From the NCBI GenBank assembly GCA_009777445.1, contig WRLV01000008.1, forward strand, positions 1 to 46,965: a stretch of DNA of 46,965 bases, given 5' to 3'. This DNA is from Oscillospiraceae bacterium (GTDB lineage: Bacteria; Bacillota; Clostridia; Oscillospirales; Ruminococcaceae). Position numbers and translations under genes: made by a program. The notes beneath the pieces were generated by a model. The model was not told where the DNA came from. It saw nothing but the letters and a program-made list of their open reading frames with translations, and made no database searches. This document shows positions 683 to 38,209 of this stretch, piece by piece; the stretch's first letter is position 1; every line of letters begins with the position of its first letter.

Positions 683-1938
683 AAAACCTCCTCCACCCCA
701 TTCCTTCTAAGCTCTTCAATGCACTCACTGTCTATTATTTCACCGGGCATGATTAAGGGGACTCCCGGGGGGCAGGGGGCTGTTACTTCGGCGCAGATTC
801 GCCCGTGGGCGTTTGCGATTGGGGTGAGCCGCGACTTTTTATAGAAAGCCTCGCGCAAAGGCAAGGCGACTTTCGGTTTTAGGATTATATGCTCTTTTGG
901 GGGCAGTCTTTTTTTTATGACTATTTCGCTAAAAGCACGAATGATTAAATCTGCCACCGGCAGCACGCCGGCTGAAAATATTAACACCAAAAATGTGTCA
1001 TCGCTCATTTCACATTCAATAAATTTTTCGCGCAGTTTTGCTGCAAGTTCAAAGCCGGTAAAGCCGCTCTCGCGTGCGTTAATGGTTATTCTCATGGCAT
1101 CGCTTTGAGCGAGCGCGAACCCCATTTTTGAGAGCGCGTTTTTCAACTGCTCGACTTGTTTGAAACTTCGCAGTGCCGTTTCACATTGGTTTTTTACATA
1201 AAGGTTACATAAATCCAACGACTCTAAAATCAGATAAGACGGGCTGGTTGTCCCGAAAAGCGACATTTGCCTTTTCAGTTCTTTGCGGTTGGTTGGCTCT
1301 TTCATATGCAGATAGCCGCCGCCCGTCAACACGGGGAGCGTTTTGTGCGCGCTGTCAGCAACTAAATCCGCGCCTTTTGTAATCGGGTGGTCGCCGCTGA
1401 ACACTTTATATGCCCCGTGAGCGTTATCGACTAACAGCAGAGCATTGTCGGGCAAATGCTCTGCCGCCGCCGCTATATCACATTCGCCGCCGTAATAATC
1501 CACGCTTGTCAAAAAGACACACGGGCTTTTCAGCGCACTCATCTCAACTTGCGACGACAGGTATTTTTCGGGGTAGAGCCATTCGATTTCTAAGCCCAAT
1601 AATATTGCGGTGTTCACCAAGCTTTTGTGTGAGTAACGTCCTGCCGCGATTTTCTCAAAGCCTTGTTGTTTGGCAAATCCCAGCATTGCTTGAATCGAGA
1701 GCGTAGAGCCGGAACACGAATAGCAAACACCGCCGCTTCCGAAAAGGGCGGCGGCGTTTTGTTCGCTTTTTAATATAATCGAACTGCTTTCATATAAACT
1801 GTCGGCACCAAAAATCTCGGTAATGTCAGAAGGGTTAGACATTCCACCCGGCATATGAAGACGTAAAAACCCGTGGGCATTATACTCACGCAAAAAATCG
1901 GCTATTGGAGTATTTAACTCCGCTATATTGAGACACAC
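667..1938 (-). CDS. Orn/Lys/Arg decarboxylase-family PLP enzyme
   Basis: This is a fold-type I PLP enzyme of the Orn/Lys/Arg decarboxylase group, similar in length and layout to B. subtilis YaaO/SpeA-type proteins. Visible motifs are HMPGGM near the N-terminus, SCSGSTLSIQAML, LLVDNAHGAY (the Asp that pairs with the PLP nitrogen), DSAHKTLPVLTGGGYLH (Schiff-base Lys) and the C-terminal PCPPGVPLIMPGE. At 423 residues it is the short form without the wing domain, expected to be cytosolic and to decarboxylate a basic amino acid; the substrate cannot be read from sequence. The start overlaps the FapA-like gene by 16 bases, suggesting coupling. The last residues (LTVDN, stop) are encoded by the dispersed TTGACA-type repeat. 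Confidence 0.85.
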   Translation of the reverse strand: MCLNIAELNTPIADFLREYNAHGFLRLHMPGGMSNPSDITEIFGADSLYESSSIILKSEQNAAALFGSGGVCYSCSGSTLSIQAMLGFAKQQGFEKIAAGRYSHKSLVNTAILLGLEIEWLYPEKYLSSQVEMSALKSPCVFLTSVDYYGGECDIAAAAEHLPDNALLLVDNAHGAYKVFSGDHPITKGADLVADSAHKTLPVLTGGGYLHMKEPTNRKELKRQMSLFGTTSPSYLILESLDLCNLYVKNQCETALRSFKQVEQLKNALSKMGFALAQSDAMRITINARESGFTGFELAAKLREKFIECEMSDDTFLVLIFSAGVLPVADLIIRAFSEIVIKKRLPPKEHIILKPKVALPLREAFYKKSRLTPIANAHGRICAEVTAPCPPGVPLIMPGEIIDSECIEELRRNGVEEVLTVDN

Positions 1939-3353
1939 TCGATTGCCCCCGATTTTCCTACTCTGACGGCTGTTCTGATATGCGCGTCTCTAACGGTTAA
2001 AACCTCTGCCCCGATTTTGATTGTCGTTCCCGGCCAAAGGTTCTTTCTTGCGTAAAGGGTTAAATCAGCCGCCTTCTGAAGTTCATAATTAATTTCTTTA
2101 ATTCTTTTCTTGATTTGGTTAATTTCACGTTGAAATGTGAACTTAGAACGAATCGCCGAGGCCAACATGCTTTCGCGCTCGGGGGGCAACGGCCCCGTCT
2201 TTTGCTTGTATTCTTGTAAAAGATTTGCCACTTGAATGAGCTTTTTCAGATTGGTTTCTAATGCCTTCACTCGTTCTTCAAGAACTAATCTCTCGTCAGA
2301 AATCAACGCCCCTCTTCCCAATGTGACCGAGGTTTTAGCATAGTTTTCAGAACCGATGATGTTGGCGTTAAATCCGCTTATTGCGGTATATTTGCCGCCG
2401 ACAACAACGCCCTTTCCTGTTGAAACATTCATTGCTCCACCGCAATAAATGTCGCTTAATATACAAGACTGTGAGGTGAAATCGCCCTGACAATCAACCG
2501 TTGAGTTCTCGCAAAAATTCAGCTTGATATTGCCTTTTGCCGAGAGACTTGAGTTAATCACTCCGAGACCCACGGTTATGTCGCCCTCAGCCACTAAGGT
2601 TGCGTTCGACACAAAGTTGTTTACTGTAATGTTCTTCTTCGATATAATGCTGAAGTTCTCTTTAACCTCGCCTTTAACCAAAACACTTCCGATAAACTCG
2701 ATATTTCCCGTAGAAGTCCCGACATTTTCGGGAATGACTAATGTATCTTCAACCACAAAACGGTCTTTGAGCCACCTTAAATTGCCGTCAACTTCTGCAA
2801 CCATGAGGGTGCCTTCTGACACAATCTTTGTGCCCGAACCGATTTTGAAGCCCGCTTCTCTGCCCGGTCTTGCGATTATAGTTCTTCCGAACACATCTGT
2901 TCCGTCTACCGCTTCACTCGGCAACTCGATTTTAGCTATAGGGGTTTCGGCTAAGATGTTGGTGACTAACCCTAAGTTCTTCATATCTTTCTCGCCGTAT
3001 CTCTTGTCCTTAGGGGCAAGCTCTACTGCGGGTTTAAAAAAGAACTGAATTCGCCCATCTTTTCCGTTGATAACAGGCGTTCCGCGCGCGATACACGCTT
3101 TTCGGCTATAGTCTTTATGCGCTAACATTTCTTTTGCAACATCTAAATCAATGCCGTGGGTAACACCCGCCAACTTTAATTCGGCTTCAACGTCAAGAAG
3201 TGTCGGCTCTCTACCACCGCCGAGCGGCTCGACTAACGAGATATACGCCGCGCTGTCGTCTGATGCAAACTCTAAAACAACCATTGCATCTTGCGAATTT
3301 GAGTTTTTATTATCGGTAGAAACCATATTTTCCGCCCCATTAACTTCCGACAC
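1923..3353 (-). CDS. FapA-like protein (DUF342)
   Basis: The protein matches the DUF342/FapA family: an N-terminal region ending in GTPVINGKDGRIQFFF, then KIELPSEAVDGTDVFGRTIIARPGRE, then a right-handed beta-helix of hydrophobic repeats (GNIEFIGSVLVKGEVKEN, KNITVNNFVSNATLVAEGDI) and a coiled-coil C-terminal part (LEERVKALETNLKKLIQVANLL). The family is poorly understood; members are cytosolic and have been linked to flagellar assembly and polymerising proteins. I place the start at GTG 3353 because AAAGGGGGTGAGG sits directly upstream. A TTG at 3389 would add 12 residues but has no such site and lies in an ACCGGC hairpin. The gene is coupled to the decarboxylase downstream. Confidence 0.85.
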   Translation of the reverse strand: MSEVNGAENMVSTDNKNSNSQDAMVVLEFASDDSAAYISLVEPLGGGREPTLLDVEAELKLAGVTHGIDLDVAKEMLAHKDYSRKACIARGTPVINGKDGRIQFFFKPAVELAPKDKRYGEKDMKNLGLVTNILAETPIAKIELPSEAVDGTDVFGRTIIARPGREAGFKIGSGTKIVSEGTLMVAEVDGNLRWLKDRFVVEDTLVIPENVGTSTGNIEFIGSVLVKGEVKENFSIISKKNITVNNFVSNATLVAEGDITVGLGVINSSLSAKGNIKLNFCENSTVDCQGDFTSQSCILSDIYCGGAMNVSTGKGVVVGGKYTAISGFNANIIGSENYAKTSVTLGRGALISDERLVLEERVKALETNLKKLIQVANLLQEYKQKTGPLPPERESMLASAIRSKFTFQREINQIKKRIKEINYELQKAADLTLYARKNLWPGTTIKIGAEVLTVRDAHIRTAVRVGKSGAIECVSI

Positions 3354-3923: not shown

Positions 3924-4235
3924 CTACCACTCGGCGAAGCCGTAACGCCGCAGTGCTTCGGGGTCGCTCTCGGCGATAAACAGCACTCGCGCCGCCGCGC
4001 CGCTCGGTCTGCCGCGCCCGTACTCCCACGATTCCACGGTCTTTTTGGACACGCCGATGACATCTGCGAAAAACCCCTGCGACATATTCAGGTTGTCGCG
4101 GATTCTGCGGATTTCGTCGGCTGTATATTTCTTCGGCGGTGTCGCCGCTACATAGTGCGAATTTAACTCAATTTTGCCCTCGGCGTGACGGAGCATTTCT
4201 TCCAACCCGCGCTTAATGCTTTCGGATACGCTCAT
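3924..4235 (-). CDS. XRE-family HTH regulator, HigA/NadS antitoxin-like
   Basis: This 103-residue protein has a helix-turn-helix at about residues 52-80: LNMSQGFFADVIGVSKKTVESWE, followed by GRGRPSGAAARVLF. The KKYTADEIRRIRDNLNMSQ lead-in and SKKTVESWEYGRRxPSG core are typical of the HigA/NadS/MqsA-type antitoxin and autorepressor group. No RelE/HigB toxin is present on either side. The gene follows a consensus promoter with an internal inverted repeat and an 18-codon leader ORF whose TGA overlaps its ATG. An orphan or formerly paired antitoxin is the most likely reading. Confidence 0.75.
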   Translation of the reverse strand: MSVSESIKRGLEEMLRHAEGKIELNSHYVAATPPKKYTADEIRRIRDNLNMSQGFFADVIGVSKKTVESWEYGRGRPSGAAARVLFIAESDPEALRRYGFAEW

Positions 4236-4499: not shown

Positions 4500-5525
4500 A
4501 TGAGCAATTCAATTACGTTTGTTGACTTATTTTGCGGCATTGGTGGATTTCATCAAACATTCGCTTCGCTTGGAGCGGAGTGTGTATTTGCTTGCGATTA
4601 CGATAAATCCGCACGTCAAACCTATAGTGCAAACTATGGCTTTGAACCGTTTGGGGATATAAGAGAGTTAGAACCGAATATTCTTCCGGATTTTGACATA
4701 CTATGCGCCGGCTTCCCGTGTCAACCGTTTTCAATTGCGGGGGTGTCTAAAAAAATTTCACTCGGAAGAAAACACGGCTTTGAAGATGAAAAACAAGGTA
4801 ATCTATTTTTTGAACTTCTTAAAATAATCCAAAATAAAAGACCCAAAGTATTATTCTTGGAGAACGTAAAGAACTTAAAATCGCATGATAAAGGTAATAC
4901 ATGGAATATTATTGAGCGAAATTTAATTTCTCAAGGATATTATGTCTTTGCACAGATTGTTGATGCTAAGTATTTTGTTCCTCAACATAGAGAACGCATA
5001 TTTATCGTATGTTTCGATAGAATGGCTTTTCCTGACATATTCTTTGAATTTCCCGCTTACCCCAAACAGCGAATTACAGAACTCCGAGACATTATTGAGG
5101 AAAAAGTGGACAAAAAATACACATTAAGCGACAAATTGTGGCAATATTTACAAAAGCACAAAGAAAACAGCGCAAGAAAAGGCAATGGATTTGGTTATGG
5201 CTTGGTTGATTTAGAAAAGGACGAAATCACAAGAACAATGAGCGCAAGGTATTATAAAGACGGTTCTGAAATTCTTATTAAGCAATCAGGCGAAAATCCA
5301 CGACGCTTAACCCCAAACGAAGCGCGAAAGCTTTTCGGTTATCCGAGCGATTTTGTTATTTCGGTTTCAGATTGTCAAGTATATAAACAATTTGGGAACA
5401 CGGTTGTTGTCCCGGCGATAAAACACGTTGCAGAGCAAATATTGAAAACGCTTGATACGTATAACAAAGGCGGCGCGAGGGTTCGCTATATTCAACAATA
5501 CTTATTAATGGAGGAGGAAGTTTAA
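4500..5525 (+). CDS. DNA (cytosine-5-)-methyltransferase, type II
   Basis: All main C5-methyltransferase motifs are present in order: motif I DLFCGIGGF (residues 9-17), motif IV GFPCQPFSIAG with catalytic Cys74, motif VI ENVKNL (121-126), motif VIII QHRERIFIV (162-170), a short target-recognition region containing GNGFGYGLV and TRTMSARYYKDG, then motif IX (RRLTPNEARKLFGYP) and motif X (QFGNTVVVPAIKHVAEQI). At 341 residues it is of usual size. It transfers a methyl group from S-adenosylmethionine to cytosine C5 in a specific sequence, which I cannot assign. GAAAGG precedes the ATG. It ends two bases before the putative restriction gene, its expected partner. Confidence 0.93.
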   Translation: MSNSITFVDLFCGIGGFHQTFASLGAECVFACDYDKSARQTYSANYGFEPFGDIRELEPNILPDFDILCAGFPCQPFSIAGVSKKISLGRKHGFEDEKQGNLFFELLKIIQNKRPKVLFLENVKNLKSHDKGNTWNIIERNLISQGYYVFAQIVDAKYFVPQHRERIFIVCFDRMAFPDIFFEFPAYPKQRITELRDIIEEKVDKKYTLSDKLWQYLQKHKENSARKGNGFGYGLVDLEKDEITRTMSARYYKDGSEILIKQSGENPRRLTPNEARKLFGYPSDFVISVSDCQVYKQFGNTVVVPAIKHVAEQILKTLDTYNKGGARVRYIQQYLLMEEEV

Positions 5526-5527
5526 CG

Positions 5528-6259
5528 ATGTTATGCAACGAAGAATTAAAAACATTAGAGACCCTTAAATCCAAATATTATATGCCGCCACTAATTTCAA
5601 GATTAGACCGGTTAATTGAAAGATATGGGTATAGAGAATGTTTCCGATATTTGCATCCAACTATCAGAAATGCTCAAGATGAAGTGATGCAAATCATCGA
5701 AAAGAGGAAGGCGCAACAAATAATTACAGATGTAAAACAAGCTTCAAAGACTGTTGTAGGTGCAATTTTTTCAAATTGCATTGAATATTTATTTCTCAAA
5801 GCGAAAGAAGCGGGCGAAGTTAGAGAGGATATTTTCGTAACATCAAAAGTGAAACACTTCAGAAAATTAATTTCAATTATCGTTGATGGTGAAACTCAAA
5901 AACCAGATATGGATTTGGTATTTTACACCCTTGACACTGAACAAAATCCGTGTAATATGATGATTGTGTCACTTAAAACATCGCTCCGTGAGAGAGCAGG
6001 ACAAACATATAAATGGAAACTATTACTTGAAATCGCTACAACCGAAAACCCGATTAAAGAAAAGTACAATATTGTGTACCCGCTTAATAAAACGCCGCTT
6101 GTTTGCTTCGCCACTGTCAATTTTTATGATGAAATAAACAATCCTCAACATAAAGGGATGTTTAAGTTTTTTGACAAATCGTTTATTGGAAAACCAGTTG
6201 AAGCGGATTTTATTGATAATTTGTCCACTCTGATTGACTATGTGAACGAAAAACTGTAA
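5528..6259 (+). CDS. Type II restriction endonuclease, PD-(D/E)XK, BsaWI-like
   Basis: The gene follows the methyltransferase by two bases, with its ribosome site (GGAGGAGGAAG) inside the methyltransferase 3' end. The 243-residue protein has a helical N-terminal part (about 1-75) and a nuclease-like core. P126-D127 (KPDMDLVF) and K150 in SLKTSLRERAGQTYKWK form a PD...SxKTS-RER pattern. This pattern occurs in endonucleases of the EcoRII/NgoMIV/BsaWI superfamily, and the N-terminal MPPLISRLDRLIERYGYRECFRYLHP resembles my memory of BsaWI-type enzymes. The nuclease call is well supported by context and motif; the BsaWI relationship and any CCGG-containing target are inference. Confidence 0.75.
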   Translation: MLCNEELKTLETLKSKYYMPPLISRLDRLIERYGYRECFRYLHPTIRNAQDEVMQIIEKRKAQQIITDVKQASKTVVGAIFSNCIEYLFLKAKEAGEVREDIFVTSKVKHFRKLISIIVDGETQKPDMDLVFYTLDTEQNPCNMMIVSLKTSLRERAGQTYKWKLLLEIATTENPIKEKYNIVYPLNKTPLVCFATVNFYDEINNPQHKGMFKFFDKSFIGKPVEADFIDNLSTLIDYVNEKL

Positions 6260-6416
6260 AATACGGTTGCTTTTGTTGATTCTTTTGGGGGATGCGAGTA
6301 CGAGGGAGTATAGGGGATAGGGATATTAAGATTCGATTTTGAGGATTTGTGTATATTCCACAAATTTCGACAACTAAATGCCGAAATGTTCTACACACCA
6401 AAATATAGGCAAAATA

Positions 6417-6445
6417 TTGACAAGCATTTCTGCATATGGTATAAT
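6417..6445 (+). promoter_or_regulatory. Consensus promoter of the membrane receiver-domain gene
   Basis: TTGACA (6417-6422), a 17-base spacer, and TATAAT (6440-6445) make a near-perfect sigma-A promoter. Transcription would start near 6452, inside the CIRCE element. The untranslated leader of about 87 bases contains an unused AAGGAG at 6487-6492 and a 10-11-codon frame starting at 6511 that runs into the main start. Confidence 0.85.
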
Positions 6446-6449
6446 CTCC

Positions 6450-6476
6450 TTAGCACTCAAATGCGAGGAGTGCTAA
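6450..6476 (+). promoter_or_regulatory. CIRCE element (HrcA heat-shock operator)
   Basis: TTAGCACTC (6450-6458), nine bases, then GAGTGCTAA (6468-6476): an exact match to the CIRCE consensus bound by the repressor HrcA. It begins four bases after the -10 box, the usual location at groESL and dnaK operons. Here no chaperone gene follows; the downstream gene encodes a membrane protein with a receiver-like domain. No other CIRCE copy was noticed in the window. Confidence 0.93.
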
Positions 6477-6538
6477 TCATCAGAGGAAGGAGAAAAATTA
6501 GAAATAATTAATGTTAAATACAAAGCGAGGCGATATAA

Positions 6539-7315
6539 ATGGTTAATACTAATCAAGAAAAAAGGGTGCGTAAAATATCAAATCCACTGACAATACTGGC
6601 TCTGTTTGCTGGAATTGCAGAAACTGCAGGGACAATCGTACTACCATTTGTTTCAGAAAATTTACAAAAATATTTTATATGGTACGTTATGGGATTTCCC
6701 GTATTGCTTGTGTGTTTATTTTTTTATGTTCTAATTCGTTTTCCAAATAGCTTATATGCTCCAAGCGATTATAGAAATGAAGAGAATTTCATACGCATGC
6801 ACCAAAAACAATTGAATACTACTGTTGCACTTGCAGCAGCAACTATTCATGGTCATGAGGGCTGTTCAAAGGAAAGTTCGGATATAGAAAAAATACCCAA
6901 TATTGTTGTAAATGCATCTTCAAATCTTAAGGTAGACTCCCCAAATTGGAATAACCAAATACTTTGGGTTGATGATAGACCTGAAAATAATATTTATGAA
7001 AGAAAAGCATTCGAGGCTATAGGATTTGAGTTCACGCTTGCATTATCAACAAACCAAGCACATGAATTATTAAAAACTAATAGTTATATTGCCATTATAT
7101 CCGATATGGGGCGAAAAGAAGGTGAAAGAGAGGGCTATGTGCTTTTAGAAGGGATTCGTTCAAAAGGGATAACAACGCCATTTTTTATTTACGCAGGGTC
7201 GAATCTTCCAGAGCATAAAAAAGAAGCGAAAGATAAAGGGGCACAAGGTAGCACTTGTTACGCAGATGAATTATTTTCATTAGTAACAAATGAAATAATT
7301 AAACGGTCAAAGTGA
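6539..7315 (+). CDS. Membrane-anchored receiver-like (REC) domain protein under CIRCE control
   Basis: The 258-residue protein has two predicted membrane segments (about 16-38 and 46-67), a linker, and a C-terminal receiver-like domain (about 139-258). The domain has the acidic pair WVDD (143-146) and a candidate phosphoacceptor Asp189 (IIAISDMG-type strand: YIAIISDM). The conserved Thr/Ser and Lys of classical receivers are not evident (FIYAGS and GSTCYADEL lie at those places), so it may be a pseudo-receiver. There is no output domain and no adjacent histidine kinase. GCGAGG precedes the ATG. Its place directly after a restriction-modification pair and its heat-shock operator suggest a stress- or defence-linked role; the function is unknown. 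Confidence 0.75.
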   Translation: MVNTNQEKRVRKISNPLTILALFAGIAETAGTIVLPFVSENLQKYFIWYVMGFPVLLVCLFFYVLIRFPNSLYAPSDYRNEENFIRMHQKQLNTTVALAAATIHGHEGCSKESSDIEKIPNIVVNASSNLKVDSPNWNNQILWVDDRPENNIYERKAFEAIGFEFTLALSTNQAHELLKTNSYIAIISDMGRKEGEREGYVLLEGIRSKGITTPFFIYAGSNLPEHKKEAKDKGAQGSTCYADELFSLVTNEIIKRSK

Positions 7316-7336
7316 ACTCACCTTTGGAACTGCATT

Positions 7337-7468
7337 TTATTTCATTTTCAGACAAAACGTACGTTTGGTGTCATTGGTCTTGTCTTCTTTTGCCCTAAGT
7401 GTTAAATTGAAGGGCTGTGTTTGATTATTTAAATTCACATACTCTGCAACTAACGCTTTATTTAACAT
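7337..7468 (-). CDS. 43-codon ORF coupled to the 3' end of mfd
   Basis: The ATG overlaps the TGA of mfd (TGATG), a typical coupled arrangement. The peptide begins MLNKALVAEYVNLNNQTQPF and ends RTFCLKMK. I see no membrane segment or known domain. It could be a real small protein translated with mfd or the remaining 5' part of a longer gene. The end converges on the receiver-domain gene, only 21 bases away, with no clear terminator between them. Confidence 0.4.
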   Translation of the reverse strand: MLNKALVAEYVNLNNQTQPFNLTLRAKEDKTNDTKRTFCLKMK

Positions 7469-10400
7469 CAAAACCCCCCACCTCCATAAGCCTCAAGAAA
7501 CAGCTTAACCCCTTCAAGCGGTTCTTCTCCTTTATCAAGATTCAAGGTTATCCCGACTCGCCCGGTTAGGTTGAGCGAAAGGCGGTCGCCGCCGAGTTTG
7601 TTGATTGCCTTCATGAATTTTTGAATGTCGGGCGTTTGTATATAACAGTTTATTACGTCACCCGACTGAACTATTTCGCTAAAACTTAATTCTCGCGCTA
7701 AATTTCTCACTTGCGCCGCCCTGACTAACCCGTGAACCGAATTCGGCAGCTCGCCGTAGCGGTCTGTCAATTCATCAACCACATCTAACGCATCGTCTTT
7801 TGTCCTTATATCGGCTATTCGCTTATAACAGCTTATTCGTTGCGCTTGATTGCCGATATAGCTGTCGGGAATAAACGCATCTGCTTTTATGTCGATGACA
7901 CAGGTGTCATCTCCTTCTTTCGCTTTTGCTTGAGTGCCACTCTTTTCGGCAACGGCTTCATTCAGCAGTTTCAAATACATATCATAGCCAACCGCTGAGA
8001 GATGACCCGATTGTTTTTGCCCCAAAATTGAACCCGCACCGCGTATTTCAAGGTCTTTCATAGCAATGCGAAAGCCCGAGCCGAATCGTGTAAATTCGCG
8101 GATTGCGTTGAGTCTCTTTTCGGCAATCTCCGTCAACATCTTACCCCTTGTAAAGGTGAAGTAAGCGAACGCCCTTCTGTTAGTGCGCCCGACTCGCCCC
8201 CTTAACTGATGCAACTGCGCTAAACCCATGCTGTCAGCGTTTTCAATTACTAAAGTGTTTACGTTGGGAACGTCTATTCCCGTTTCAATAATGGTAGTGC
8301 AAACTAAGATGTCGATTTCGCGGTCAAGCAGTTTTTGCCAAACGTCCAACATCTCATTTTCTTCCATTCTACCGTGAGCAATTCCTATTCGCGCCTCAGG
8401 GCAAAGCTCATGTATTCTTGCCGCGCAACTCATAATGCTCTCTACCCGATTGTGAAGATAATAGACCTGCCCGTTACGGCGCAACTCTTTTTCTATGGCG
8501 GCTTTTATAACAGAATAGTCTAACTCTACCACATAAGTTGTGACAGGGCGGCGGTCTTCCGGCGGTGTTTCTATTACCGACATATCCCGTATTCCGCTCA
8601 TCGCCATATTCAAAGTTCGCGGAATGGGCGTGGCACTTAAAGTTAAAACATCGGCGTTTAAACAGACCGCTTTTAACTTTTCTTTGTGATTAACCCCGAA
8701 CCTCTGTTCCTCGTCGATGATGACCAATCCCAAATCTTTAAATTTAACATCATCTTGAACCAATCTATGGGTCCCGATTACCATGTCCACAATGCCTTTT
8801 TCCAATTTTTTCAAAACTTGTTTTATCTCGGTCGGCGTTCTGAAACGCGACAAAAGCTCTATATTAAAAGGAAAATGCTCCATTCGTTTAAGGGTGGTTT
8901 GATAGTGTTGCCATGCCAATACAGTTGTGGGACAAAGCAGCGCGCATTGTTTTCCGTCCATCACGCACTTAAACGCAGCCCTTAATGCAACCTCTGTTTT
9001 TCCGAAACCCACGTCACCACACAAGAGGCGTTCCATGGGGCGTTGGCTCTCCATGTCGCGTTTTATTTCGCTGATACAGCGCAATTGGTCTCGCGTTTCC
9101 ACAAAGCTGAAATGATTCTCAAAGTTGTGCATCTCTTCACCGTCGGGCGCGAAAGAGTGCCCCGTCTTTTTAAGACGTTGTGAATAAAGCGCGATTAACT
9201 CGTCCGCTAACTCAGATGATGCTGATTTCGCCTTCGCTTTGGCTTTAGCCCATTTGGTTGAATTTAACGAGCTTAACCTGATTGAGGATGTCTCGACATT
9301 CCCTATATAACGAGAAAGCAAATCTAACTGAGTGACCGGAACATATAACACATCTGTTCCCGCATATTTCAGTTTAATATAGTCACGGCTTATTTCTTCT
9401 TTAGTTAGCTTTGTGACACCTTCAAAAACCCCGATTCCGTAAGCAGAGTGAACTACATAGTCACCCACATTTATGTCGGTGAGCAAAATATCGGGGCCCT
9501 TTTTTTTGGGCGTTTGTTTTTTTATTACTTCACCCTCGTGTACCTGCAAAGAGCCGCCCGTCACCTTATTTCGTGTCGTGTGGGTTAAACAAGCGCAAAG
9601 AGCCTCGCCGTATTCAAAACCTGCACTCAAACCTCCGCTAAGAACATATATTTTTTTTGAAAACAATTTGTTGGGGCGCGCGGTATAATCGGCAGGAAGA
9701 TTATCATCTCTCAAATCAGTGGCAAGGGTGCGCGCCGCCTTTTCGGTTCCTGCAAACACTGCAACAGACCACCCTTTTTTAAGGTAGCCTTTCAAATCAT
9801 CGGTCAGCAGTTTATATTCACCGCTCCAGGGCGATAAAACGTTGGCGTTTATGTTCAAACGATTACCGCTTTTCGCAAAGGTGTCAAAAAAGGCGACTAA
9901 GCTTTGGTCAAGGGCGATTTCATATTCGTGCTTTTGAAGCATGTGGCAGTCGATTCCTCTGAAAATCGCGCCCTGTTCAAAGCCTTCTTTTAATTCTTCG
10001 TTATAAACGCTAACAGCTGTGTTAAAGTTTTCTTTAGCTTTCGCGCGCTCACAGACAATTGTAAAATCGGTATAATCAAACAGCCCACCACCGCCAACAT
10101 CAGACAACGGAAGGTATTTGTCCGGGTTCATAGGAAAAAGCCCTGTTTTGAGCGCGATTATATCTTCGTCTAATTGTTTTTTTGCTCGACTTTTCGACGA
10201 CAATTCTACTGTTTCAAGTTGCTTCAAAAGCTCACCGCAATTAAAAAGCGTTTCGGCGCAAGGGGGTAGCTCTACTTTTTTAACCGCTGTCTCTATTCTT
10301 CTTTGGGTTTCTATATCAAACGCCGTAATGGTTTCAATATCATCGCCCCATAATTCCATGCGCAACGGTCGCCCCGTATTAACCGGATAAATATCCACAA

Positions 10401-10965
10401 TCGAGCCGCGTATTGAGAATTGCCCTTGCCCTTCTATCATGTCACAACGAGTATACCCCAACTCGAGCAAGCGCGCGGACAATCCGTCTGTTGTAACACT
10501 GTCGCCTTTTTTCAAAACAATGGTTTTAGAAATAAGGGCTTCTTTATTTAAAGTAATCTGTGCGGCGGCGGCAGGGGTTGAAATAATGAGTTTTATGGGA
10601 TTGTCGCGGTTTACCGCCGCACACAGCACGTTTATTCGGCGATGTTCATATTCACGCGACATAGCGAAAGTGTTGCTGAAATTGAAGTCCTTTTCGGGAT
10701 ATAGCATAGCGACTTCAGACAAGGCTAATGTATTTATGTCCTCTGTCAATCTTAAAGCTTCGCCTTCGCTACCGCAAAGCACTAATCCGCAAGCGTGGCG
10801 CGGTATGCCGCCACCGACACAAAGTGCCCCCAAAAAATGGGCTTTGTGAATATGAGACAAGCCTGTTAGGGCCAACGGCTGTGCGTTGCCCCTAAAGTGA
10901 CTTACTGTTTGCGCCAACCGCCGATATTCAGGCAGTTGTTCGGCTATGATGTTGAAAAGATTCAT
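7468..10965 (-). CDS. mfd: Transcription-repair coupling factor Mfd
   Basis: At 1165 residues this has the full length and domain order of Mfd: UvrB-homology N-terminal region, RNA-polymerase-interacting domain (VGDYVVHSAYGIGVFEG), then the RecG-like translocase. Walker A is GDVGFGKTEVALRAAF (about residue 650), DEEQRFGV follows at about 751, and SATPIPRTLNMAMSG and the motif-VI region QLRGRVGRTNR are present. The C-terminal TRCF domain covers the last 150 residues. Mfd removes stalled RNA polymerase at lesions and recruits UvrA. The ATG lies five bases after the upstream Rpn-type ORF, so co-transcription is likely. Confidence 0.97.
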   Translation of the reverse strand: MNLFNIIAEQLPEYRRLAQTVSHFRGNAQPLALTGLSHIHKAHFLGALCVGGGIPRHACGLVLCGSEGEALRLTEDINTLALSEVAMLYPEKDFNFSNTFAMSREYEHRRINVLCAAVNRDNPIKLIISTPAAAAQITLNKEALISKTIVLKKGDSVTTDGLSARLLELGYTRCDMIEGQGQFSIRGSIVDIYPVNTGRPLRMELWGDDIETITAFDIETQRRIETAVKKVELPPCAETLFNCGELLKQLETVELSSKSRAKKQLDEDIIALKTGLFPMNPDKYLPLSDVGGGGLFDYTDFTIVCERAKAKENFNTAVSVYNEELKEGFEQGAIFRGIDCHMLQKHEYEIALDQSLVAFFDTFAKSGNRLNINANVLSPWSGEYKLLTDDLKGYLKKGWSVAVFAGTEKAARTLATDLRDDNLPADYTARPNKLFSKKIYVLSGGLSAGFEYGEALCACLTHTTRNKVTGGSLQVHEGEVIKKQTPKKKGPDILLTDINVGDYVVHSAYGIGVFEGVTKLTKEEISRDYIKLKYAGTDVLYVPVTQLDLLSRYIGNVETSSIRLSSLNSTKWAKAKAKAKSASSELADELIALYSQRLKKTGHSFAPDGEEMHNFENHFSFVETRDQLRCISEIKRDMESQRPMERLLCGDVGFGKTEVALRAAFKCVMDGKQCALLCPTTVLAWQHYQTTLKRMEHFPFNIELLSRFRTPTEIKQVLKKLEKGIVDMVIGTHRLVQDDVKFKDLGLVIIDEEQRFGVNHKEKLKAVCLNADVLTLSATPIPRTLNMAMSGIRDMSVIETPPEDRRPVTTYVVELDYSVIKAAIEKELRRNGQVYYLHNRVESIMSCAARIHELCPEARIGIAHGRMEENEMLDVWQKLLDREIDILVCTTIIETGIDVPNVNTLVIENADSMGLAQLHQLRGRVGRTNRRAFAYFTFTRGKMLTEIAEKRLNAIREFTRFGSGFRIAMKDLEIRGAGSILGQKQSGHLSAVGYDMYLKLLNEAVAEKSGTQAKAKEGDDTCVIDIKADAFIPDSYIGNQAQRISCYKRIADIRTKDDALDVVDELTDRYGELPNSVHGLVRAAQVRNLARELSFSEIVQSGDVINCYIQTPDIQKFMKAINKLGGDRLSLNLTGRVGITLNLDKGEEPLEGVKLFLEAYGGGGF

Positions 10966-36697: not shown

Positions 36698-36943
36698 ATG
36701 GAAACTACAGCTAACCGTTGGGGAAATGCTCTTGGCTTTCGCATTCCCAAATCGTTACAGGATATTTCAAATATTCACGATAAGACGAAAATCAAAATCG
36801 AAGCTGAACCGAATCGACTGATTATAACAAAAATCCCTGAACGCTTGACGTTAGAGGCTATTTTTGAAAATTGGGATGGCGAAAAATACGACAGCTATGA
36901 CTGGGGCGAGCTTGAAATGCCTGCCGGAAAGGAAATGATATGA
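36698..36943 (+). CDS. MazE-like antitoxin, module 1
   Basis: The 81-residue protein has an AbrB/MazE swapped-hairpin N-terminus (TANRWGNALGFRIPKSLQD...KTKIKIEAEPNRLIITK) and an acidic C-terminal tail (WDGEKYDSYDWGELEMPAG), which in MazE binds the toxin. GAGGTG precedes the ATG. The stop overlaps the mazF start (ATGA). Confidence 0.85.
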   Translation: METTANRWGNALGFRIPKSLQDISNIHDKTKIKIEAEPNRLIITKIPERLTLEAIFENWDGEKYDSYDWGELEMPAGKEMI

Positions 36944-37266
36944 GCTTTCAACAGGGGGACATAGTTATCGTAAATTTCGACCCGACTCTTGGACATGAAC
37001 AAGCGGGACGGCGTCCTGCTTTAGTTGTCAGCAAAGGGCTTTACAATCAAAACACAAATCAGATACTCGTATGTCCTATAACATCAAGAGCAAAGCCGCT
37101 TCCTATGAGAATTAAACTTGATAGTAGAACGAAAACACAGGGATTTATCATGTGCGACCAAATCAGAACGTTCGATATTGATGCGCGAAAGCCCAAATTT
37201 GCCGAAAAGCTCCCGGAAGACACTTTGGAAAAGATTAAACAAACCGTTTCAGCCATAATCATATAG
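36940..37266 (+). CDS. MazF-family endoribonuclease toxin, module 1
   Basis: The 108-residue protein is a complete MazF/PemK: QQGDIVIVNFDPTLGHEQAGRRPALVVS, LVCPITSRAK and GFIMCDQIRTFDIDARKP. The conserved Arg24-Arg25-Pro and the Thr of CPITS, used in catalysis in E. coli MazF, are kept. It should cleave single-stranded RNA at a short motif and be held by the upstream antitoxin. It appears intact. Confidence 0.92.
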   Translation: MSFQQGDIVIVNFDPTLGHEQAGRRPALVVSKGLYNQNTNQILVCPITSRAKPLPMRIKLDSRTKTQGFIMCDQIRTFDIDARKPKFAEKLPEDTLEKIKQTVSAIII

Positions 37267-37293
37267 GCAACCTCTGAAAACTTTTCAAAATTC

Positions 37294-37337
37294 TTGACTT
37301 AATGTGTTCTATGTGATATAATAATCATATAGAACAC
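37294..37337 (+). promoter_or_regulatory. Promoter and inverted-repeat operator of mazEF module 2
   Basis: TTGACT (37294-37299), 17 bases, TATAAT (37317-37322). GTGTTCTAT (37304-37312) and ATAGAACAC (37329-37337) are perfect 9-base arms flanking the -10 box, a likely antitoxin operator. Confidence 0.8.
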
Positions 37338-37359
37338 AATTTTTTGAGGAGGTCTTATC

Positions 37360-37611
37360 ATGGAAACAACTTTACAGCTTGCTTCATGGGGAGACTCAAC
37401 TGCTTTGAGAATCCCAAAAATTTTTTTGCGACAGTTAAACATGACTGACAAATCAACTGTAAAAATCAAGATTAACCACAACAACGAACTAATTGTCACG
37501 CCATATGTAAAGCGAATGACAATTCAAGAACGCTTTGCAATGTATCCGGGGGATTATATGAGAGAAGTAGAACTTGATTGGGGCGAAGATGTAGGGGAGG
37601 ATTTTATATGA
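37360..37611 (+). CDS. MazE-like antitoxin, module 2a (no toxin of its own)
   Basis: The 83-residue AbrB/MazE-type protein reads METTLQLASWGDSTALRIPK and KSTVKIKINHNNELIVTPYVKR with an acidic tail ending ELDWGEDVGEDFI. Its stop overlaps the ATG of a second MazE-like gene, so two antitoxins precede one toxin. Its N-terminal half closely matches the module 3 antitoxin (38283). It may be left from a deleted mazF or act as an extra antitoxin. Confidence 0.8.
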   Translation: METTLQLASWGDSTALRIPKIFLRQLNMTDKSTVKIKINHNNELIVTPYVKRMTIQERFAMYPGDYMREVELDWGEDVGEDFI

Positions 37612-37880
37612 CTACTACAATAAATCGTTGGGGAACAGATTATGGGATTAGAATAACAAAGCCTATACTTGAGCAATTTCCCATTAGTGATAAACAAAAA
37701 TTAAGTGTTGAAATTGAGGGAGATAGAATTATTTTTACGCGTTCTAAAGAAGTCAAACCACACAAATCGCTTGCAGAATATTTGAAAGAATACGGTTGGG
37801 ACGGTAAAACCCCTGAATTAACGAAAGAGGACAAAGAATGGTTGAATATGTCTGCAGTCGGGGAGGAAATAGAATGGTAA
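37608..37880 (+). CDS. MazE-like antitoxin, module 2b
   Basis: The start ATG 37608 overlaps the previous stop (ATGA) and follows GGGGAGG. The 90-residue protein has TINRWGTDYGIRITKPILEQF, then KPHKSLAEYLKEYGWDGKTPELTKEDKEWLNMSAVGEEIEW. This tail is like that of the antitoxin at 43804. The stop overlaps the mazF start. It is the direct partner of the downstream toxin. Confidence 0.85.
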   Translation: MTTTINRWGTDYGIRITKPILEQFPISDKQKLSVEIEGDRIIFTRSKEVKPHKSLAEYLKEYGWDGKTPELTKEDKEWLNMSAVGEEIEW

Positions 37881-38209
37881 AGCAAGGAGATATAATTAAA
37901 ACAGACCTTGACCCGACAAAAGGACACGAACAAGCAGGTTATCGCCCCGCCCTCGTAATCAGTCCGCCCCTCTTCATGCAAGCAAGCAATTTAACGCTGA
38001 TTTGCCCAATCACTAACACAGATAGAAAACGGGCAATGCACATTAAGCTTGAAAACACACAAACAACAGGATTTGTAATGACCGACCAAATAAGGGCGAT
38101 AGACCTTAAAAGCAGACCGTTTCGTATAATAGAACGTGTTTCAAAGGATTTTGCGGAAGTTATATCCAACCTCATCAAAGCTTCGGTTGACATCTTAGAG
38201 GAGTATTAG
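37874..38209 (+). CDS. MazF-family endoribonuclease toxin, module 2
   Basis: The ATG at 37874 is chosen since it gives the family N-terminus MVKQGDIIKTDLDPTKGHEQAGYRPALVIS and overlaps the antitoxin stop. The protein (about 111 residues) has LICPITNTDRKRAMHIKL and GFVMTDQIRAIDLKSRP. It is closely similar to the toxin at 44076 (MVKQGDIIKTDLEPTKGHEQ), so these two are recent duplicates. It appears intact. Confidence 0.92.
   Translation: MVKQGDIIKTDLDPTKGHEQAGYRPALVISPPLFMQASNLTLICPITNTDRKRAMHIKLENTQTTGFVMTDQIRAIDLKSRPFRIIERVSKDFAEVISNLIKASVDILEEY

Follow-up and report, generated by a model that had tools for sequence, protein, structure and literature searches.

A single gene in the window (the whole 46,965-nucleotide stretch of Oscillospiraceae DNA analysed here), located at 6539–7315 on the forward strand and encoding a 258-residue protein with a two-helix membrane hairpin and a non-canonical receiver, lies behind a perfect CIRCE, the operator of the heat-shock repressor HrcA. 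The operator and the fold are known; what is unusual is their pairing, with an anchor family that lacks known function. The best explanation, which we hold with slightly better than even confidence, is that a conflict gene of the phage or mobile-element type has been captured by the HrcA regulon; judging by its control region, overload of the folding machinery is probably what switches the gene on.

The CIRCE, TTAGCACTC-AAATGCGAG-GAGTGCTAA, occupies 6450–6476 on the forward strand with 0 mismatches to the HrcA operator consensus in a pattern scan, and it is the sole match in the window even when up to three mismatches are allowed. It starts 4 nt after the TATAAT of a sigma-70 promoter (6417–6445, forward strand), where TTGACA (6417–6422) and TATAAT (6440–6445) are separated by a 17-nt spacer, all 12 of 12 hexamer bases agree with the consensus, and a TG precedes TATAAT as in an extended -10 element; a perfect CIRCE just after a consensus -10 box, as claimed in the sequence-only reading, is therefore what the sequence holds. 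Promoter-like sites in 6100–7470 number 4, against 5.8 in shuffles, so that the 12/12 match is notable and the number of sites is not. In the leader, AAGGAG (6487–6492) is unsuitably positioned for the gene at 6539; the first ATG after it, at 6511, opens a putative 11-codon ORF (6511–6546) which overlaps the start of the gene. The same reading took this AAGGAG to be unused by the gene, which holds, and as a sign that the control region might have been copied from a chaperone operon, which is not supported for want of clear similarity past the motifs: identity outside the hexamers to 70 CIRCE promoters averages 30% (sd 6%), the best being 26 of 58 bases with one htpG promoter, and a DNA search gave a weak match to the htpG promoter of one genus member, G019 (73% over 78 bases, E 4e-5), over a stretch that includes the shared motifs.

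With both arms intact at a promoter, the window CIRCE would be active by analogy with other bacteria. HrcA is reported to need GroELS for repression and to lose its hold once GroELS is occupied (PMC3842655; PMC7737663). In L. lactis, altering one base of a CIRCE arm raised the output of the groESL promoter more than twofold (PMC4585701), and the functional CIRCE sites reported for Mollicutes carry at most two changes (PMC5138195).

The genome assembly (91 contigs, 1.98 Mb, 92% complete) contains four CIRCEs at up to three mismatches, every one of them perfect, in front of groES-groEL, htpG, hrcA and the window gene, while a reversed control pattern finds one match at the same tolerance. The repressor gene, on which the sequence-only reading depended, is present in the same genome (hrcA, PF01628, 1.9e-45). 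Across the genus, CIRCE occurs in 60 of 60 genomes, with 188 sites at no more than one mismatch. The 75 distinct sites that were read (80 rows) comprise 73 of these 188, our own included, from about 30 of the 60 genomes, plus 2 from the same order; eight listed places in G002, G032, G460 and G468 lie outside the read set. They precede groES (23), hrcA (23), htpG (20), hsp20 (7), lon (1) and the window gene (1). BLAST supplied the groES, hrcA and htpG labels, apart from a single htpG and a single hrcA assigned by eye, and Pfam supported the lon label and two of the seven hsp20 labels. A heat-shock gene thus stands behind 74 of 75 distinct CIRCEs, and the window gene is the sole exception to what is, as far as read, a chaperone and protease set. 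HrcA regulons are usually viewed as closed chaperone sets, a view that the other 74 sites fit; a clean exception on a mobile-type gene offers a direct test of chaperone titration switching an accessory gene, possibly during infection. The TTGACA-17-TATAAT-4-CIRCE spacing of the genome's own htpG is identical to that of the window gene, and at least 9 of 12 hexamer bases at the window gene's offsets are found in 19 of 22 hrcA promoters, 2 of 19 htpG promoters and 0 of 21 groES promoters. Two variations were seen in passing: in one genus member (G002, locus L117), lon (1059–3329, reverse strand) lies directly downstream of a perfect CIRCE, and at four hsp20 loci (L082, L086, L107 and L110) the gene follows a one-mismatch CIRCE, with a TTGACA-like hexamer overlapping the spacer and the right arm.

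The protein has hydrophobic stretches at residues about 16–38 and 44–74, and a structure model (pLDDT 82) gives helices at 16–37 and 40–67 with a very short turn between them, followed by a helical linker and a receiver fold, in agreement with the two membrane segments that had been claimed. The membrane-hairpin module, residues about 8–90 (6560–6808, forward strand), belongs to phrog_26238 by profile (E 4e-23, residues 8–87) and alignment, and carries the NPL, FP, P.D and E.NF motifs common to that family. By sequence, the anchor finds no solved structure with E below 0.2, and its Pfam matches to UNC-93 (0.001) and Frag1 (0.005) are weak and under cut-off. Pfam holds SLATT models, and no SLATT name is among the Pfam matches of the window protein; similarly, a PADLOC family scan up to E 1, CBASS 2TM/SLATT-type effectors included, gave no match.

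The phrog_26238 hairpin is found on 78 IMG/VR contigs, in phages F116, H66, RHEph21 and EKP1, and on plasmids. Its cargos were labelled by patterns and by eye in 97 proteins, 84 of them distinct, in a set that omits L158 and L224 of the 78 IMG/VR loci. The 84 distinct proteins carry PD-(D/E)XK-like cargo (28), none (24), winged helix (11), other (7, including L027 and L216, which are nuclease-like in look), IWLG (6, our own name for one cargo domain), receiver (6), FHA (1) and a pentapeptide-like cargo (1), that is, six recognisable kinds; the receiver and FHA labels have Pfam support, the latter from PF00498 at 1e-11. The nuclease-type cargo shows the D and ExK pattern and yields a confident model, whose best matches, to Can2, are weak; EcoO109I and McrC rank lower. 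The anchor is followed in 21 contigs by a gene from a single small-protein cluster, of which two members were scanned: both are phrog_26297 and pentapeptide-like under the Pfam cut-off. This two-gene phage unit, a stand-alone phrog_26238 hairpin and then a pentapeptide-like gene, is seen in L168 (5001–5569), L154 and others, and in L179 the phrog_26297 family is fused to the anchor itself. The family listed in PHROGs solely as "unknown function" is thus an exchangeable two-helix anchor with many cargos, and it merits testing whatever the trigger of the window gene may be.

On sequence comparison, the window gene is a mosaic drawn from this exchangeable anchor family. Its receiver half is 61–70% identical to those of five other receiver types, whose hairpins are only 32–38% identical to its own, while the window hairpin is 62% identical to that of L023 (FHA) and 57% identical to those of L007 and L018 (winged helix); this identity contrast alone indicates re-pairing of cargo and anchor. 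The closest hairpin is that of a hairpin-FHA fusion in an Oscillospiraceae MAG (L023, 4504–5184). A single clade of receiver-bearing hairpins was rejected (AU test, p 0.005), and in the hairpin tree, built from 83 distinct hairpins and 76 columns and having long branches, the window's included, the window hairpin and the other receiver-type hairpins fall on opposite sides of a starred branch. CIRCE was found in 1 of 102 family entries (a count with some duplicates, such as L011/L207, and with 150 bases upstream in the case of L202), the window gene itself, and the next best site has 5 mismatches. The operator is thus not conserved in front of the gene's relatives, a recurrence that the sequence-only reading had proposed as a check; since no other entry among the 101 carries it, the CIRCE wiring is local and not a family trait, and conservation lends no support to selection for the wiring.

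Full-length members of the receiver type are rare. No other full-length copy was found in 59 relatives (two partial matches), nor among 397 further genomes from the phylum, a set that partly overlaps with these relatives (again two partial matches). In a collection of 84,980 species there are at least three receiver types, L020 from Sulfuritalea, L021 from Acidithiobacillus, and L022; IMG/VR has at least L035 plus four contigs carrying the E. coli receiver type, and in E. coli this type occurs in 26 of 5,426 genomes. The window protein alone as query found nothing in genome contigs or viral contigs, and the relatives in the species collection and in IMG/VR were recovered by a two-row alignment query with two peptide patterns per collection; since only two patterns were used for each, the counts for these two collections are lower bounds. 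A related receiver (44.7% over 110 residues) was also noted in a 1509-aa Rhizobium protein (L014, 2276–6805), which has in addition a SLOG-cluster domain and adjoins a MoxR ATPase.

Upstream of the window gene, on the same strand, lie a C5-cytosine methyltransferase (4500–5525, PF00145 2.4e-85) and a BsaWI-type restriction endonuclease (5528–6259, PF18643 5.3e-12), so that the adjoining restriction-modification pair proposed from the sequence is real. The next large ORF after the gene is mfd (7468–10965) on the opposite strand, which leaves the window gene alone downstream of its promoter, also as proposed. In 29 other genomes of the genus, the flank 3' of mfd contains neither the window gene nor the BsaWI-type endonuclease; these flanks are 1.5 kb long in 26 genomes and 778, 276 and 270 bases in three, with the methylase beyond their reach. 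The locus 3' of mfd is variable and the window gene accessory. Two of the six receiver-type loci have restriction-modification genes alongside, which rules these out as a fixed partner and lends no support to a steady association. Of the two kinds of company that the sequence-only reading asked of homologs, CIRCE was absent, and phage or defence neighbours did appear at several family loci. For instance, the L035 gene overlaps a CAP12/Pycsar-type TIR gene (PF10137 8.6e-23), and roughly 1.1 kb downstream of it, on the opposite strand, lies a type II methylase for which no endonuclease was recognised; the E. coli receiver-type gene adjoins an AriA/PtuA-like AAA ATPase, and both E. coli genomes that were read place it after yfgI and the AAA ATPase, with guaA next in one and prophage genes in the other; and L029, with IWLG cargo, has a CBASS-type cyclase and effector two ORFs away. 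No recognised defence system was seen next door to L020, L021 or L022 by eye (two L021 neighbours were scanned, one of which is at the Pfam cut-off for a PD-(D/E)XK family). A search for an RNA element upstream of relatives gave no Rfam match in 4 loci, and the integron attC site suspected at L021 is still compatible with this.

According to the preferred explanation, HrcA would repress the window gene while free GroEL is plentiful; when GroEL becomes occupied, by heat, misfolding or possibly phage proteins, the gene would be released jointly with groESL, hrcA-dnaK and htpG. The protein would be inserted in the membrane with its N- and C-termini both facing the cytoplasm, and its receiver would serve as a cargo for protein docking or sensing rather than as a standard phosphorelay output. 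It would act against phages or other mobile elements, as defence or superinfection exclusion. Such a role is the most likely one because phage contigs show the same anchor with cargos of the nuclease-like and winged-helix kinds, and because elsewhere it has TIR, CBASS, AAA-ATPase and restriction-modification genes close by. Effector action, and the link to phage defence or restriction-modification stress suggested in the sequence-only reading, are hypothetical. A less probable alternative is that the gene is a true member of the HrcA regulon acting in proteostasis or envelope stress, as an adjunct to the chaperones with no anti-phage role. The company it keeps speaks for this, the 74 other CIRCE genes read being chaperones, hrcA or a protease, as does CAC2705 of C. 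acetobutylicum, a membrane protein of unknown function with a predicted HrcA site (PMC3828012); however, the window gene is rare, patchy and mosaic, and its anchor is found in phages. CAC2705 also differs from the window gene in that its site is common to the adjacent groESL operon, and the likeness is drawn from the description given in that source (PMC3828012).

More tentatively, HrcA may serve as a phage alarm: phage proteins would occupy GroEL, HrcA would release the gene, and the swappable membrane-anchored receiver would stop the infection. We regard this as rather unlikely, and the same low weight applies jointly to its broader part, namely that phrog_26238 is an anchor of phages and bacteria whose cargos are exchanged like toxin tips, and that hosts can rewire single copies of it to stress regulons. 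The logic of the HrcA-GroE circuit (PMC3842655; PMC7737663) would allow such sensing, the anchor is phage-linked, and there is a precedent in bNACHT25, a defence protein reported to detect phage via DnaJ (PMC12169576). However, our literature search found no report of HrcA release during infection, the relatives do not carry CIRCE, and induction after GroEL has been consumed may come too late. The search likewise found no report of CIRCE before a phage or defence gene; a table of CtsR and HrcA targets from L. plantarum, both predicted and verified, does include prophage operons (PMC3842655).

The receiver-fold domain covers residues about 139–258 (6953–7312, forward strand). The solved structures closest to the modelled domain are response-regulator receivers, the best being 6ont (E 1.5e-6), so that comparison with REC folds upholds the receiver-like assignment; PF00072 matches the protein at E 9e-5 and 23 bits, under the curated cut-off of 30.2. 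WVDD is at residues 143–146 and is followed by Asp189, and Asp145, Asp146 and Asp189 are invariant in 6 of 6 aligned receiver-type members. The Thr/Ser switch position, by alignment to RcsC, is Ala219, with Ala in 6 of 6 members, and no Lys occurs within 234–246 in any of the six; the retained and missing residues are thus those named in the sequence-only reading. An ordinary phosphorelay, with Asp189 phosphorylated by a histidine kinase and the signal relayed to the membrane portion, would suit the fold and the three invariant aspartates but is quite improbable given the absent switch and lysine residues and the lack of a kinase gene among the neighbours examined. From sequence and model, we infer that docking or sensing is a better fit for this receiver than ordinary phospho-switching.

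CIRCE palindromes also occur in viral contigs. IMG/VR yielded 104 stretches with perfect palindromes, 80 of which were taken as loci; an ORF could be tested at 86 sites, of which 26 match hsp20, groES or htpG references and 60 do not. A promoter score of at least 10 was reached by 13 of 87 sites, compared with 72 of 2400 control positions, and the unmatched palindromes often have no promoter or lie within longer inverted repeats. At least one of the 60 unmatched sites (L260) precedes a gene that is Hsp20-like by eye. Six viral loci (L253, L264, L278, L282, L299 and L306) have two to three perfect CIRCE palindromes, or a CIRCE within longer inverted repeats, with genes that match no chaperone reference. 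CIRCE as a phage-carried element was considered, and these data give nothing firm. That the window CIRCE arose by chance or is a relic, outside HrcA control, as such perfect palindromes away from chaperone-reference matches might suggest, is very improbable: with up to three mismatches allowed, 0.01 matches are expected in the window (1 of 100 shuffles with a match), the promoter geometry is exactly that of the genome's own htpG, and no longer inverted repeat surrounds the site when the sequence is read by eye.

Several known systems resemble the captured conflict gene that we favour. It shares a perfect operator, native promoter geometry and a resident hrcA with the class I heat-shock (HrcA/CIRCE) regulon, but the target here is an accessory membrane receiver and neither chaperone nor protease, at 1 of 75 sites read. 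Its anchor half is phrog_26238, as in the phage units with phrog_26297, but it has a receiver cargo and no phrog_26297 partner was seen. SNIPE, a membrane-anchored anti-phage nuclease, similarly combines an inner-membrane anchor with cytoplasmic domains, and its N-terminal parts vary between homologues, which we count as a likeness; unlike the window protein, it is described as having one TM, DUF4041 and GIY-YIG, with two TMs predicted in 7% of homologues (PMC13190303). The phrog_26238 family, in contrast, keeps the two-helix anchor and varies the cargo, and the window member has no nuclease domain and no Pfam match to DUF4041 or GIY-YIG. MXAN_4468, an orphan response regulator, is likewise a receiver protein with a connection to the HrcA circuit, but it binds HrcA as well as the DNA of its own gene and undergoes phosphorylation (PMC9040617), whereas the window receiver is itself a CIRCE target.

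Two further features of the window were observed. An HTH_3 gene (3924–4235, reverse strand; PF01381 8e-8, MqsA-like 2e-4) has fapA on one side and the methylase on the other; no toxin partner is apparent. In addition, 36698–38209 contains a run of short gene pairs with repeated promoter-like leaders, as seen by eye, which we take to resemble MazE/MazF toxin-antitoxin modules.
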